Source of the DNA: Anaerolineae bacterium
GTDB lineage: Bacteria > Chloroflexota > Anaerolineae > E26-bin7
Length of the DNA stretch: 34,779 bases
Assembly (NCBI GenBank): GCA_029933115.1
Contig: JAOZOT010000005.1
Location: 1-34,779, forward strand
Reading direction: 5' to 3'
A program made the translations under genes and the position numbers. The notes under the pieces are model-generated. The model was not told where the DNA came from and ran no database searches. It saw nothing but the letters and a program-made list of their open reading frames with translations. This document shows, piece after piece, positions 15,450-34,779 of this stretch (the stretch's first letter is position 1; every line of letters begins with the position of its first letter).

Positions 15450-16154
15450 TCACAACCTCGTCATCCATTCCGGCGGCTCCCAGTCCCTCAGTTGCAGCCG
15501 GTAGATATTGTAATCGCGGCGCACCTTGCGGGCATACTTGCCCACTCGCTTTGCGTAAGGCGAATTGTAACGTTGCACCGCCAGCCACATATCGTCGGTG
15601 CTGCCCAGCCGATGAGATAGCACCAGCGTGCCTACGTAGATATTCGTGGCCGGATCGTAGTAATCGTCGCCTGGTGCATATTTCGCATAATAGCACGGCT
15701 TCCATTGCATCAACCCGCATTCCCCGGCGCGTCCATTTATGTTAATTCTGAAATCGCTTTCAACGTCAATCATCGCCAGGAGCAAGCATACCGCCTCATC
15801 TGCGGGCGCGTTTATATGCGGCAGGCCTTGCTCAATAATCGCCGCCGCAATCTCCCGCGCATTGCCCGGATGCCCGCGCTCGGCAATCATATGGACGCAG
15901 AAGGCGCGTAAATCAACGGCAACGGGGGAGCAGCCGTCGGAGTCGGAGAGAGCGCCTTCTGCGCCCGCCGAAGTTCCCGCACGCGCCGGAACTACAGCGC
16001 ATATTTTCACCAGCAGCGCAAACGCCAGTATCATCATCAGCCAGAAGCCCAGCCTGTAAACGCTGTATCTCCTGAGCCGAAGCTTAGTCTGGCGATGCGC
16101 CGCCGTCATTTGATTGATTAATCTCTCGTTCACTGTTTCGCGTCCGTCCATCAT
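15450..16154 (-). CDS. Membrane-anchored lytic transglycosylase (SLT-like)
   Basis: N-terminal TM LGFWLMMILAFALLVKICAVV; AMIDVESDFRININGRAGECGLMQWKPCYY; YNSPYAKRVGKYARKV. GGGAGG SD before MMDGRE; overlaps the DnaA-C-like gene. Confidence 0.75.
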   Translation of the reverse strand: MMDGRETVNERLINQMTAAHRQTKLRLRRYSVYRLGFWLMMILAFALLVKICAVVPARAGTSAGAEGALSDSDGCSPVAVDLRAFCVHMIAERGHPGNAREIAAAIIEQGLPHINAPADEAVCLLLAMIDVESDFRININGRAGECGLMQWKPCYYAKYAPGDDYYDPATNIYVGTLVLSHRLGSTDDMWLAVQRYNSPYAKRVGKYARKVRRDYNIYRLQLRDWEPPEWMTRL

Positions 16155-16500
16155 CAGCCTCCCCGGTTGGCTTTACCACTATCGGCACCGGCTGCGGCTC
16201 TTCGCCGCTCTGCCAGTAATACTCGCATATTTCAACCATGCGCCTTAACCGCTGATCTGATTTGATAAGTTCGGCCATTTCGCGATGCTGTTTCATCGGG
16301 CTGTAAGGGTTTGAGCGGTTGAGCGCTTGCGCTATATCGTCAAAAGTGAGATTCGTGTTTTTACGCGCGATGTAATAAAACACCTTCCGCGCTTCCCTGT
16401 ATCTTGCGCGCCTATTTTTAGAGCGTAAGGTCTGTGGCGTCAAGTAATACGCTTTCGCCACCACTTCTACCAGTTCGTCAAGAGGATGCATTTCCGGCAT
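16084..16500 (-). CDS. DnaA domain IV-like DNA-binding protein without ATPase domain
   Basis: VAKAYYLTPQTLRSKNRRARYREARKVFYYIARKNTNLTFDDIAQALNRSNPYSPMKQHREMAELIKSDQRLRRMVE matches the layout of the DnaA C-terminal domain. SD spacing favours the internal start at 16491 (MHPLDEL). Confidence 0.6.
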   Translation of the reverse strand: MPEMHPLDELVEVVAKAYYLTPQTLRSKNRRARYREARKVFYYIARKNTNLTFDDIAQALNRSNPYSPMKQHREMAELIKSDQRLRRMVEICEYYWQSGEEPQPVPIVVKPTGEADDGRTRNSEREINQSNDGGASPD

Positions 16501-18306: not shown

Positions 18307-21300
18307 TCAACTCACAACCTCCATTACCGCCCCGCCCCCGCGCTTTTCCAGGTATACGCGGGTCGGGAATTCGTTTATCAGCGGCGTGGCGTGCGTCACC
18401 ACAAGCACCTGTTTGAAGTGCGAGACGAACCGCTTCAGCACGTCCACCATCCGGCGACGGTTATCGGTATCAAGCGCATCGAAGGCCTCGTCCACGATAA
18501 ATATCTCCATTCGCTTGCCCTCGCGCTGCGCCTGGTAGACCGCCAGCGCCAGCCTGAGCGCCAGCTTTACCATCTTGCGCTCACCGCCGCTGAAGGTGGC
18601 AACCTCGCGTTCACTTTCGCCGTCGCTCACGAGTATGTCCAGCACCTCACGCTGCTTCCCGCTCTTGGTGGAGCCAAGCGTGCTGAGAGTCACGCGGAAG
18701 TCCTGTCCTTCAAGTATGTCGTCCAAAATCGCCTGTATCTGCGGGACGGCGGCCTCGATGAGCAATTGCGGTATCCCATCTTTACCAAAGGCCTCGGCAA
18801 TCAGCGCATATTGAGCAATAAGTATTTCGTGCTTTTCAATTTCCGCCTTCAGCGAACGCACCTCGTTATCAGCCTGGCGCACAGTTGCGATGCGCTCTTG
18901 CAGCGCGGCAACTTCGCCAACGTGCTTCTCGTGCGATTGCCGCGCCTGGGCTAAAAGCTGCTCCGCAACGTCGCGCTCGGCTTCAAGCTGCTTCTCGGTT
19001 TCATCAGGTTCATCACAAGCGGCAAACGCTTCTTTCTTTTCAGCGAGTATCGCCTGATAGCGTTCCACCTCAGCTTCGTAATCGGCAAGCTGCTCGCGAA
19101 GTTCGGGTAAAGCGGCTTCCTGCCCCTTGATCTCGGCAAGGCGTTGCTTTGCCTGCTGCCCGCTCTTGAGGCGAGCCTGCAATGTCTGCCGCATAACTTT
19201 CAGCGCTTCAAAGTTCACGTCTGGCAGCGCCGCCAGCGCCTTCTCGTGCTCGATCACCGACCGTTTCAATTCGGGTATTCTAGATTTTGCCTCCCGCGCT
19301 TTATCCATAAACTTACAAGGCGGGATTTTCATAGGGCTGTCGCAATTGAGTTCCGGATCGTCTATAAGCGCCGCTTCTGCTTCGGCGTCGGCAAGCTCTT
19401 TACGCGCCGCCTGAAGATTGCTGCGAGTTTGAATTAATAAAGTTTCAGCCTGTAGCTTATCCTCTATATCGGCCAGTTCGCTTTCGGTATCCGCCAGTGA
19501 CGCAAGCGCTTCTATCAGGCGTTGCTTATCTTCGCCGCCGTTTTCCACTTCCTTGATTTTCTGCTCGGTCAGGGATACGCGCTTCTGGGCGTTGAGCAAG
19601 TCCTGCCCGGCGTCCTTGACGGCCTGCTCAAGCTCGGAGCGTTCCTTGTATTTCGCCTTCAGCGCCGCCGCCTTCTCCCGGATTCTCTGTATATCAGCTT
19701 CTTGCTGCTCAATGTTGTCAGCGGCTTTGTCACGCTCGGCGGTGGCCGTTTCAATAGCCTGCTGGATTTCAGGCAGCTTAGCAGCAAGCTCTTGCTGCCT
19801 GTTTTGCTGCAATTGCAGCGAATCGCGCTTCGATGCGAACTCCGAACGCTTATCCTTTGCCCGCTCGTGAATGATTTCAAAGCGCTCAGCTCTAACCAGT
19901 TTTCCGAGCACCGCCTTTCGTTCACGCGGCGGAAGCTCGGTGAGGTCACCGGCGCTGAACTGCGACGAAAAGATAGTGGCAAGCACCAGTTCCTTAGACC
20001 CTATAAGCTGCTCAATCGCGGATTCAAACTCGCGGACTTTAGGGCCAGCAATAGCCTCGGTTTCGTTCTCACGATAAAGGTATGCGTCCTGCTGCGTTCG
20101 CGCTGCGTCAATGAGCCTGCTGGCGGTGTAAGTTTCGCCACCACTCACGAACTCCACCTCTATCAGCGCTTCGCCGTCCGCCCCGCGCGTCACCTGCTCA
20201 TAGAATCCGGGGCGGCTTGGCCACTCGCCATAGAAGCAGGCCAGCACGGATTCAATCAGAAACGTCTTGCCGCTGCCGTTATCGCCAGCGATGCCGATAA
20301 GCTCATTAGAATTGAGAGTAAGCGTAGTATCCTCATGTGGCCCGATGTGCTTCAGCCGGACGCGGCTAACCCGCTCCAGCGAGCCGAGCGCGCCGTTTTC
20401 GCGCGGGAGGTCTTGGGCGAGGTCGTCGATAATGTCATGCACAGCGACATAATTGAATAAGTCGGCGTCCTGCGGGTCTGCAAGCAAGGGACTAAAGGGC
20501 GGACAGCAAGACTGAAACCACTTACCAAAAAGTGCTATTGGCATCTCGTCCACGTTCATATCAGCCGCCCCCTCACGCGCCTTCCGCTCCTGCGGGATGC
20601 GCTCAAATGTCAGGTGCGGCGGATTGAGGCTTATGTCGTCGGGAAGTTCGTAGTCGCGGATACGAACGAAGTCGGCGCTGCGGAATTCCTCTTGGTTGAA
20701 ACGGTAGTGCTCAGCGCCAAGCGTGAAGTAACGCGGCGTGTCGGTGTGGATATGCGTTGCGGTAACGGTGCGTCCTTTTACTTCCAGCACCTCAAAACCA
20801 GGCTCGCACGGCCCCCGATTGTTCCGCTCGGGAACTTCGATGCACATACCTTCCCCGAAGTCCTTCTGCGCTACCGTGCCTACGTAACCGCCAAGCTCCG
20901 GGCGGCTCTCATCCAGCGGCTGGCGTTTGTGGATATCGCCAAGCGCGTAGTAATCTGCGCCGATTTCAATAAGCTGCTCACGTGTGAACACTAGCTCGCG
21001 GTCGGAAGCGTCAAGACTGATGCCGCTTGGCAGCGCGCAGCCCTGCATCTGGCAATGGCCGAGAAATATCACCGGCTTGCCAGCATCATGGCCAACCTGG
21101 GCTTCGAGCCTGAAAGCGTCAAGCTGCTGCTGCACCCGCTGGCGGAACTTGCGCGCAATCTCATCGCGGCTAAGCTCCTGCATTTCGTCGGGCTTGAGCA
21201 ACATGCTCGGATACAGCCACGGCATACACAGCACCACGAGGTCGCTAAAGTGCAGAAATTGCGGGCGTTCCCATACGTGAATGCGCTCATTTCCGAGCGG

Positions 21301-21573
21301 CGCGATTGCCGAACGCCCCAGCCCGAATGCCAGATCGTGCTGGCCTGATATGAGAACGCTTTCGCATTCTAGGTCTTCCAGGAATACTTGCGACATCGTG
21401 ACAAGCTCGCCGGTGCTCGCCTGGGAATCGCCAACCAGCGGGTTATCAAACCAGTCGCCAGCGTTGAGATAGTAATCAATGCTTTCCTGCTCAAGCATTT
21501 GCCGGAATACGGCATCTATGATTTCGCGCCGTTTGCCGTTTAGGTGATGGTCTGCTGAGATAAGAATTTTCAT
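18307..21573 (-). CDS. Single-chain SbcD-SbcC (Mre11-Rad50) fusion nuclease/ATPase
   Basis: 1088 aa. N-terminus: MKILISADHHLNG, LNAGDWFDN, ISGQHD, LGHCQMQG, YALGDIHKRQ. C-terminus: AGDNGSGKT, long coiled coil, FSGGERKMVKLALRLAL, MEIFIVDEAFDALD, VVTHA. Confidence 0.9.
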   Translation of the reverse strand: MKILISADHHLNGKRREIIDAVFRQMLEQESIDYYLNAGDWFDNPLVGDSQASTGELVTMSQVFLEDLECESVLISGQHDLAFGLGRSAIAPLGNERIHVWERPQFLHFSDLVVLCMPWLYPSMLLKPDEMQELSRDEIARKFRQRVQQQLDAFRLEAQVGHDAGKPVIFLGHCQMQGCALPSGISLDASDRELVFTREQLIEIGADYYALGDIHKRQPLDESRPELGGYVGTVAQKDFGEGMCIEVPERNNRGPCEPGFEVLEVKGRTVTATHIHTDTPRYFTLGAEHYRFNQEEFRSADFVRIRDYELPDDISLNPPHLTFERIPQERKAREGAADMNVDEMPIALFGKWFQSCCPPFSPLLADPQDADLFNYVAVHDIIDDLAQDLPRENGALGSLERVSRVRLKHIGPHEDTTLTLNSNELIGIAGDNGSGKTFLIESVLACFYGEWPSRPGFYEQVTRGADGEALIEVEFVSGGETYTASRLIDAARTQQDAYLYRENETEAIAGPKVREFESAIEQLIGSKELVLATIFSSQFSAGDLTELPPRERKAVLGKLVRAERFEIIHERAKDKRSEFASKRDSLQLQQNRQQELAAKLPEIQQAIETATAERDKAADNIEQQEADIQRIREKAAALKAKYKERSELEQAVKDAGQDLLNAQKRVSLTEQKIKEVENGGEDKQRLIEALASLADTESELADIEDKLQAETLLIQTRSNLQAARKELADAEAEAALIDDPELNCDSPMKIPPCKFMDKAREAKSRIPELKRSVIEHEKALAALPDVNFEALKVMRQTLQARLKSGQQAKQRLAEIKGQEAALPELREQLADYEAEVERYQAILAEKKEAFAACDEPDETEKQLEAERDVAEQLLAQARQSHEKHVGEVAALQERIATVRQADNEVRSLKAEIEKHEILIAQYALIAEAFGKDGIPQLLIEAAVPQIQAILDDILEGQDFRVTLSTLGSTKSGKQREVLDILVSDGESEREVATFSGGERKMVKLALRLALAVYQAQREGKRMEIFIVDEAFDALDTDNRRRMVDVLKRFVSHFKQVLVVTHATPLINEFPTRVYLEKRGGGAVMEVVS

Positions 21574-22826
21574 TTCGTTGCTCCCCGCTTCTTTCGCCAC
21601 TTTTCCTGGCACTGACGACAAAATACCCAACCTTCAAAGAACTTCGCATTCTTCGGGTCCTTGCAATAGTTATAAACATCTTCTGCTATTGGGTTTTTGC
21701 AGTGGTCGCATATCGCATAATCGCTTTTGCCGCCCGTTCGACGTTCCGTATTCGGTTCGTCCATCATACTTACTCCTTCGCCCGTATCCTGTTCTGCCGG
21801 TTCAGGGTCGGGCACGAGGCCATTCTTTTGCATATCGTGCTCGACCGGCGGCCCGAGCTCGTTTTCTATTTCCTGATATTCCGCTTCATCGATCGGGTTG
21901 TCGGCATCCTCTTCCAACCGTTGCTCCAGTTCATTGTCGGTCTCGCCAGCAGGCAATGAGGCTCTTCCGCTTTCGCCCGCTCCGCGCATCAGAAGCGTTG
22001 CCACCTGCATTTTGCGGGTATGAACCTTAACTCTTCCTTCCTTATCGGGTTTGCCCCGGTAAGGACGGCGCTCCCAGACTTTCACCAGTTCAAATTCCGG
22101 GGCGCTAAGCGGTATCCTGCCTGCCGACATTATTTTCGCATACGTAAGCACCTGGTTGATGAGCCGATCAGCCGTTCCGCTGTGCAGATCGTATTGAAAC
22201 GGGTTGAAGATACCGATGCCTTCAAGATCAATTAATCTGAGGAATAACCGTCCGCGCCGCGCGCATTTACCTTCAACGAAGTCCGGGCATTCGGTTCGTT
22301 TGCATTCGACTTCGACCCGCTTCCCGTCTAAATCATATCGCATCGCAATACCCGGCTGTTCAGTGCTATAGCACTCGGCAGTTCCGTCAGCCCGATAATA
22401 GGTATACTGAATGTTTGCGGTCACGTCGAAGTTGATCATAAATTTCACGCGCAAGCTCGCAGGAGTCGGGCCGAGTATCTCATCTATTTCCGGCTGATGC
22501 ACGGGATTTTCCGCTTTCACTATGAAGTAGCCAACGTTGAGGATGCCAGGCGATTTGCCCGCTTGCTCGGCGCGGGAGATGCGATCAAGCAATTTCTGCG
22601 CCTGCTCAGGTGTGCAGCGGACAATTTCAGCTACATCATTCGGCTTCCGGCCAGCCAGCGCAAGCAGGTCATCGCCGCTCAAACCAGCCTTGATTTTACC
22701 GGCCCTGGGGATTCTCAATGGTTTATCCCGCATTTCAACTTCAGTGAGAGTGCCCGGCTTCATAATCGGGCCTTCGCCGATTCGTTTTTCGATAGCGTTG
22801 CTGTTGGCGTTATTCGAGTCGTTCAT
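21570..22826 (-). CDS. Recombination directionality factor (Gp3-like)/'hydrolase or metal-binding' family-like protein with C-terminal zinc ribbon
   Basis: 418 aa; VECKRTECPDFVEGKCARRGRLFLRLIDLEGIGIFNPFQYDLHSGTADRLINQVL; C-terminal CDHCKN...CRQC. Confidence 0.55.
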   Translation of the reverse strand: MNDSNNANSNAIEKRIGEGPIMKPGTLTEVEMRDKPLRIPRAGKIKAGLSGDDLLALAGRKPNDVAEIVRCTPEQAQKLLDRISRAEQAGKSPGILNVGYFIVKAENPVHQPEIDEILGPTPASLRVKFMINFDVTANIQYTYYRADGTAECYSTEQPGIAMRYDLDGKRVEVECKRTECPDFVEGKCARRGRLFLRLIDLEGIGIFNPFQYDLHSGTADRLINQVLTYAKIMSAGRIPLSAPEFELVKVWERRPYRGKPDKEGRVKVHTRKMQVATLLMRGAGESGRASLPAGETDNELEQRLEEDADNPIDEAEYQEIENELGPPVEHDMQKNGLVPDPEPAEQDTGEGVSMMDEPNTERRTGGKSDYAICDHCKNPIAEDVYNYCKDPKNAKFFEGWVFCRQCQEKWRKKRGATK

Positions 22827-24917: not shown

Positions 24918-26090
24918 TCATTTTCTTCTCAGATTGATTGCGTTAAACCAGGTCACTCCCCAGCGCGGATGCACGGCAAACATTGCCTGCATCGCCGGGC
25001 AAGGCCGATCGAATTGGCCGAGCGTATATTCTGTAACGCCCGGAAAACAGCCGCCAAAAATCACCGGCGGACTAAGGCTCAAAAAATGCCAGTGGCCGAA
25101 TTCGCCCCAATCTATGCGTTTGCCCGTATCCTGCTGGATGCGGCTGAGGCGGCGTCGCGCCATGTTCTCTGTGTTGACGCTGGCCTTTATCTTGTCGCCG
25201 TGCTCAAGAAAGAATTGCCAGCCGAATCGGTCTACGATTTCCCAGTCACTATAATCGCTTAGTTCGAATCGGCTTTCTACATTTTCCGGTTTTATGCGCT
25301 CAATCACTTCGTGCAGCGTGTTGTAGGCGACGCGATCCCAATTATCTTCCGGTCGCTTGCCCTGGTAGCGCCCGCCCGACCTTCCGTGATTGCCGCTGCG
25401 GTAGTGAACTGTGACTTTGCGAAACTTCGTTGAAGCGAATATTATCAAGTCGAGCATCAGCTCAACGAAAAGGTTCGCCTGCTCCAGGACGCCCATATCG
25501 GCGCGCCACAACTGGCCGGGGTAAACTCCGCCATCGCCCTCAACAACATCGCCCAAAATATCTATATCCAGCCCGACGAAACCCTTGAAGCCGCCCTGCT
25601 TTTTTTTAATGATGCTGACCATAGCTTCTTTGATACGGTCAAATGAAGCTATCGTTATGCTGGGATCGTAGAAGTTCGACTTCTGATTTTCCTGTGGCCG
25701 CACAACGAGACCGGTATGAACATCGCATATTGTAAGCACAGCGAGTTCAGAATCTTTATCGGGCTTATAAGTCGCGGGCGGCGGTATTTCAATGGGCGCG
25801 AGTTTGTCGGCCATGAGCTTTATCGCCTGAGCGAGTTCGCGCTTCACTTCCAACTGCTTAGCCTCACGCTGCGTCAATCCCAATTCTACATTCGTTGGCT
25901 TTGGTGGAACGACGCCGCCATCCTGCTGGTAAAACGCGCCCATCGCATACATCCAGTAGGAGCGGGCGACACTTTTTTTCATGTTGAATTCATTATGCAT
26001 CGCGCTCCGCTTCCCGTAAGGGTCATCGCGCAAATATTCCATCACACGCTTTAGAGTATCGGTATCCGGTTGGAATGGTGGCGTTGGCAT
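24918..26090 (-). CDS. Calcineurin-like metallophosphoesterase
   Basis: LTICDVHTG, DILGDVVEGDG, RSGNHGRSG, LEHGDK, FGHWH. Confidence 0.75.
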   Translation of the reverse strand: MPTPPFQPDTDTLKRVMEYLRDDPYGKRSAMHNEFNMKKSVARSYWMYAMGAFYQQDGGVVPPKPTNVELGLTQREAKQLEVKRELAQAIKLMADKLAPIEIPPPATYKPDKDSELAVLTICDVHTGLVVRPQENQKSNFYDPSITIASFDRIKEAMVSIIKKKQGGFKGFVGLDIDILGDVVEGDGGVYPGQLWRADMGVLEQANLFVELMLDLIIFASTKFRKVTVHYRSGNHGRSGGRYQGKRPEDNWDRVAYNTLHEVIERIKPENVESRFELSDYSDWEIVDRFGWQFFLEHGDKIKASVNTENMARRRLSRIQQDTGKRIDWGEFGHWHFLSLSPPVIFGGCFPGVTEYTLGQFDRPCPAMQAMFAVHPRWGVTWFNAINLRRK

Positions 26091-34045: not shown

Positions 34046-34779
34046 TTAAGTCCAGGTAAACTGGAATTTGTTTTGCGAATCCATCGCGAACCGCGCCCGA
34101 CAATAATACAGGCCATCCTGCTCAAATATCTCCGGCGGTTCATTAAGGTAACCGTCAATGCTGTAATTGCAAGTGTTGCCTTCCGCCTTGCCGAGTTCAA
34201 GCGTAAAAGAAGCGCTCGTTTCGCTCGTGAAGATATTGTGAATGTTAAGGGTTGCCTGAGCGGGGAGCCGGAATTCTGCCTCAATTGTCGGAGCCTGATC
34301 AACAACACGTGGCACCTGGATACCCTGCACAGCGCCGCTGCCCAGATCGCGTTCCGCTACAGTTTCGTTGTTGAGCGCGAAGCGCAGACGACGGCATACA
34401 AGGTTGGCAGATGAGACGCCCGCGACAGTTGCATCTAACCCTGTGCATACAACGGGCGTTGTGGCTGTCCAGGCGCTTTCGGACGAACCCGCCTCGCTGG
34501 GCGCAACATACTGGCCGATAATGTTGTAAGTTGCCTTGCCCGGCTTGCCCGGCTCAAATTCGAATACAGCATCCGCAACAGCTTCATCAATCCCCTGGCA
34601 GAATCCGTTCCCAAGATACTGACGAACATCGATAGCCGTAAGGTCGCCGGGATTCGAATCGTCGTTAAGGTTGAGTTCGCCATCAGCAGCGTAAGTCACG
34701 CTAGTGCCGGAAACGATAGTTTCACTCAGACCGCAAGCCTTTAACAAGTCCTGATCAGGCGGCGCCACGCCAACCGTGC
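34046..34779 (-). CDS. Major tail (tube) protein, C-terminal part (same gene as 1..275)
   Basis: Open frame ending ...AMDSQNKFQFTWT; lies upstream (in transcription) of the tail chaperones and tape measure. Confidence 0.75.
   Translation of the reverse strand, partial: TVGVAPPDQDLLKACGLSETIVSGTSVTYAADGELNLNDDSNPGDLTAIDVRQYLGNGFCQGIDEAVADAVFEFEPGKPGKATYNIIGQYVAPSEAGSSESAWTATTPVVCTGLDATVAGVSSANLVCRRLRFALNNETVAERDLGSGAVQGIQVPRVVDQAPTIEAEFRLPAQATLNIHNIFTSETSASFTLELGKAEGNTCNYSIDGYLNEPPEIFEQDGLYYCRARFAMDSQNKFQFTWT
34725..34779. repeat. Terminal direct repeat, copy 2
   Basis: Exact 55-bp match to 1-55. Confidence 0.97.

Follow-up and report, generated by a model that had tools for sequence, protein, structure and literature searches.

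Two-Chain SbcCD and the Known Mre11-Rad50 Fusions

The best-described counterparts of the protein considered here are E. coli SbcCD and T4 gp47/gp46, which belong to the same nuclease and ATPase families and provide structure matches for it (7yzo, 6s85, 6s6v, and 7yzp), but which consist of two polypeptides instead of a single chain. Both systems carry the canonical metal-site residues and a CxxC hook. Proteins in which Mre11 and Rad50 are joined were described in 2011, when thirteen cases were reported (Yoshida et al., PMC3175470), including Mimivirus R555, Bacillus phage 0305phi8-36, C. kluyveri and Deferribacter plasmids, bacteria, and eukaryotes, and a repeated origin of such fusions from operons was already proposed in that work (PMC3175470). 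These proteins share with the fusion described below the same domain order, a comparably short linker, and a sporadic distribution on mobile elements, whereas in the phage case of the 2011 paper one P-loop segment is missing, as is the capping/HLH region (PMC3175470); both are present here, in a genome of 34.7 kb.

The first-pass annotation of this locus had implied that SbcD and SbcC are known only in the form of separate polypeptides, a view contradicted by the 2011 report (PMC3175470) and by fusions found in several large phages. The search for other fused proteins that it recommended was run and yielded further examples, both in annotated phage records and in scans of viral contigs. Fused proteins of ∼1070-1330 residues are found in Microcystis Mel-JY01, Tenacibaculum PTm1 and pT24, Chryseobacterium MA9V-1/2, Sphingomonas PAU (gp288), and a 735-kb uncultured phage, where they are annotated as metallo-phosphoesterase or DNA repair exonuclease. 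An apparent fusion in a 484-kb phage was matched in two pieces with no fused frame found, and was not counted. The large-phage proteins (PTm1, pT24, MA9V-1, PAU, Mel-JY01, the 735-kb phage, and the scanned contig L110) resemble the present one in carrying both domains in one chain and, except in PAU, a motif V of GDIH, but they come from records of 190-735 kb and form one clade from which it is excluded. What is new here is a fusion in a complete genome of ∼35 kb, a fusion event that appears to be separate, and two unusual metal-ligand replacements.

The Fused Gene and Its Phage Genome

The window, by which we mean the whole 34,779-nucleotide stretch of DNA analyzed, is a complete small circular phage genome, since its ends (1-55 and 34725-34779) are identical over 55 nt, closing a circle of 34,724 bp, and a tail-protein ORF reads through the join. 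Among its genes are those for terminase, portal, prohead protease, major head, an endolysin-like protein, and a transglycosylase. The SbcD-SbcC (Mre11-Rad50) fusion gene occupies 18307..21573 on the minus strand and encodes one chain of 1088 codons plus stop, open throughout from the ATG at 21573. The first-pass annotation had placed this uninterrupted frame at the correct coordinates, its strand being absent, and was right to put its share of a small phage genome at about 9%. Although the same frame is open from a TTG at 21630 (1107 codons), the ATG at 21573 is the likely start: GGGGAG lies upstream of it, it shares an ATGA with the stop codon of the preceding gene, and it lines up with the first residue of SbcD in L135, the closest relative found (MKIAIVADAHFRGK).

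The Mre11 part comes first and the Rad50 part second in a single uninterrupted frame, as in the fusions described in 2011. Pfam profiles match the protein to Metallophos (1.7e-6, aa 1-216), AAA_23 (3.6e-8), and SbcC_Walker_B (2.3e-10), and PHROG profiles to SbcC (1.2e-64) and SbcD (1.6e-7). Together with the named motifs, these matches cover both halves and bear out the earlier proposal that both domains lie in one chain; on its sequence, chance does not account for a 1088-codon frame with matches to both families.

The Mre11/SbcD Half

The Mre11/SbcD module comprises residues 1-∼390 of the fusion. It begins with an Mre11-type phosphoesterase domain (aa 1-245; 20839..21573, minus strand), recognized by Pfam Metallophos, an SbcD profile, and Foldseek, and containing the motifs DxH (D8, H10), G39-D40, G77-Q-H79-D80, H173, and G212-D-I-H215. 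A capping domain follows at approximately aa 258-330 (20584..20802, minus strand), assigned with low model confidence in parts from the modeled strands, its position, and matches to SbcD structures with nuclease and capping domains. The SbcD profile, which itself includes the fusion sequence, spans aa 1-394, and in sequence this part resembles the SbcD proteins of phage records only weakly. Residues 1-400 were modeled with AlphaFold2 from an alignment of 58 viral sequences, with a pLDDT of 76.5. When this model was compared with known structures by Foldseek, ranks 1-35 were all Mre11/SbcD (the best being 3thn, E 5e-13, followed by 7yzo and 6s85), and other phosphoesterases appeared from rank 36. 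The modeled N-terminal part thus has an Mre11-type fold with a capping domain, and the earlier assignment of an Mre11-type nuclease, which a homology search pointing to another family could have overturned, withstood this comparison.

Putative Rad50-binding helices were placed by position at approximately aa 339-386 (20416..20559, minus strand), with helices predicted at 345-356, 367-370, and 375-386. Between the last helix of the Mre11 part and the first Rad50 strand of the model lies a 12-residue linker (approximately aa 387-398; 20380..20415, minus strand). Helices spanning 345-386 followed by ∼12 residues before the first ATPase strand would fit a Rad50-binding segment and linker, the linker in Mre11/Rad50 fusions having been estimated at 9-12 residues from the T. 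maritima complex (PMC3175470).

The Rad50/SbcC Half

A complete Rad50/SbcC is present in residues ∼399-1088, in which the Walker A, Q-loop, SGGE, Walker B, D-loop, and H-loop elements all fall in conserved alignment columns. ATPase lobe I (aa 399-562; 19888..20379, minus strand) is supported by Pfam AAA_23, alignment, and the model, and contains the Walker A motif GDNGSGKT (430-437) and Q538. It is followed by an antiparallel coiled coil (aa 563-933; 18775..19887, minus strand) with ∼175 residues per arm and predicted helices at 563-738 and 754-928. The coil apex, between the helix end at 738 and the helix start at 754, bears two cysteines as C744-x8-C753 (19315..19344, minus strand), an arrangement that is zinc-hook-like but not the canonical CxxC; one cysteine at the apex is invariant in the alignments, and the spacing of the hook cysteines is variable in other viral SbcC proteins. 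ATPase lobe II (aa 934-1088; 18310..18774, minus strand) was delimited by Pfam SbcC_Walker_B and invariant alignment columns, and carries S995-G-G-E998 (FSGGE, 994-998), the Walker B/D-loop FIVDEAFDALD (∼1023-1035), and H1061. The full-length model, which is of modest confidence (pTM 0.53, with pLDDT <50 over much of the capping region), has the Rad50 chains 7zr1, 5dny, and 3qku as its best structure matches.

Replacements in the Metal Site

Two positions of the nuclease site differ from nearly all relatives. Motif III reads GQHD in place of GNHD (aa 77-80; 21334..21345, minus strand), and motif V reads GDIH in place of GHxH (aa 212-215; 20929..20940, minus strand). Across 116 separate viral SbcD proteins, whose positions were assigned by automatic alignment, the N of GNHD is N in 109 and Q in none, while the leading H of GHxH is conserved in 112 and replaced by N in three and by D in one. 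The ligands D8, H10, D40, H79, H173, and H215 are all retained. The equivalents of Q78 and D213 in P. furiosus Mre11 are N84 and H206, which bind the same metal ion.

An Asp at the motif V position is found in seven of the nine fused proteins tabulated, GDxH being present in six large-phage fusions, and the same H-to-D change occurs in Mimivirus R555 (PMC3175470). The fused L028, PAU, and L157 proteins have His at this position, and the unfused L135 has GHIH. The association of fusion with the H-to-D change is not significant, about two of four independent pairs being in agreement (sign test p = 0.5), and amounts to a lead and not a result. It is a rather doubtful proposition that fusion has been repeatedly accompanied by this change (in the window, the large-phage clade, and R555), such that nuclease gating is altered and fused Mre11-Rad50 proteins are functionally distinct from tethered SbcCD, though the metal-site changes do raise the question of nuclease gating in fused forms.

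Relatives and Origin of the Fusion

Searches of viral and genome contigs with the fusion protein alone found no relatives, and alignment queries were needed; in a tblastn search of phage and plasmid records, no record covered 80% of the protein. The viral scans recovered three distinct fused ORFs (L028, L110, and L157), compared with 117 distinct loci in which the two genes are separate. Upstream of the L028 fusion lies an 848-codon frame (L028:3244-5787) that by eye resembles a replicative helicase with an intein-like insert. The closest relative found, L135 (IMGVR_UViG_3300038675_000170), encodes separate SbcD and SbcC proteins with ∼30% identity in both domains, and its two genes overlap by ATGA with a strong ribosome site, GGAGGGGG. 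Like the window, L135 has both domains and a Gp3-like gene upstream, but unlike it, the domains are encoded by two genes and motif V is GHIH.

SbcD and SbcC were aligned separately for tree building, as SbcD-only and SbcC-only rows were misaligned when combined. The D-domain tree placed the window near the fused L028, where two long branches meet, and the C-domain tree was used instead. In that tree, with L135 included, the window is sister to the unfused L135 (99/94), the large-phage fusions make up a separate group (85/96), and the fused L157 is sister to the unfused L143 (100/98), so that the fusion label requires four changes. A grouping of the window with the large-phage fusions was rejected (AU p = 0.0005), as was a grouping with L157 (p = 4e-7).

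These sequences are most simply explained if a two-gene operon became fused separately along the window's own branch. The tree alone is compatible with L135 having split an older fusion, and the window may be related to the fused L028, a nearby long branch. It is scarcely credible that two overlapping genes were merged by a mistake in sequencing or assembly, even though separate SbcD and SbcC genes lie within 30 nt of each other or overlap at 47 of 83 viral loci from the first scans, and though in some, such as L036, L061, L087, and L102, they share a frame with one stop between them, so that a single error could fuse them. The fusion has no in-frame ATG, GTG, or TTG between codons 378 and 443, whereas at the same point L135 has an ATG with the GGAGGGGG ribosome site, and error is unlikely because a mere indel would leave the SbcC start codon and ribosome site in place. 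From its sequence, then, the fusion seems genuine. With a separate fusion on its own branch, the window would offer a clear operon-to-fusion case for the Mre11-Rad50 machine, the nearest relative found having kept two overlapping genes. The arrangement in L036, L061, L087, and L102 would also be a one-step route to fusion.

Proposed Function and Alternatives

The protein is probably a one-chain SbcCD end-processing enzyme, used on phage DNA ends and fused on the phage's own branch from a two-gene operon. Two copies of the fused chain would associate by way of their nuclease and ATPase heads and so form the usual M2R2 head. ATP binding would close the heads and cover the nuclease, and contact with a DNA end or hairpin would switch the complex to its cutting state, as happens in E. 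coli SbcCD. Trimming of DNA ends in this way may serve the phage's own recombination or replication, perhaps together with the neighboring Gp3-like protein. By analogy with the family, a role in phage recombination or replication as an ATP-controlled nuclease of DNA ends or hairpins is likely, the role in infection being read from family and gene position only. The earlier argument that fusion fixes a 1:1 ratio is sound, but this is not special to the present protein. Being compact, taken from a small phage, and fixed in its 1:1 assembly, such a single-chain enzyme could suit structural work.

Full nuclease activity is not assured, given that the metal site departs at two residues from that of nearly all relatives, and the fusion might instead bind or bridge DNA ends with a weakened or altered nuclease, mainly tethering or protecting them. 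Q78 and D213 do sit in the metal site, at positions that are overwhelmingly N and H in separate viral SbcD proteins, and R555 has the same H-to-D change (PMC3175470), but Gln and Asp can still coordinate metal, the six ligands listed above are intact, and GDxH in the large-phage fusions suggests a working site, which leaves such a protein unlikely. An action against the host, in which the fusion degrades host DNA or counters end-directed defenses instead of processing phage DNA, is more improbable still. The bacterial bin that holds the contig is probably Anaerolineae-like (its SbcC being 53% identical over 295 residues to an Anaerolineales bacterium protein) and has its own SbcC and SbcD as separate genes, and if it is the host, the phage copy would therefore replace no missing host function; yet no specific feature points to an anti-host role, and the fusion adjoins a Gp3-like gene, an arrangement also seen with the two separate genes in L135. 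Production of two proteins, namely the full chain and a free Rad50 with the Mre11 docking helices made by internal initiation at the ATG of codon 339, is very improbable indeed: GAGGGGGCGG does lie a few bases upstream of that ATG, but its resemblance to a ribosome site is only loose. The end-processing enzyme described above is the reading that we prefer.

Neighboring Genes

The Gp3-like gene (PF18897; 21570..22862, minus strand) is 430 codons long and lies upstream of the fusion, its stop overlapping the fusion ATG. A Gp3-like gene is likewise located upstream of SbcD in the unfused L135 (L135:3375-4616), and those of both the window and L135 are recombination directionality factor-like. The part of the window's gene set that was searched showed no integrase, and a search of viral contigs with the Gp3-like protein alone found no relatives. 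A few genes upstream of the fusion, a second, separate gene (24918-26090, minus strand) matches the phage exonuclease family PHROG 284 (E 7e-36) and shows metallophosphoesterase-like motifs by eye. The gene at 16084-16500 on the minus strand encodes a 138-residue protein whose sole domain is the DnaA C-terminal DNA-binding domain (PF08299, E 3e-11).
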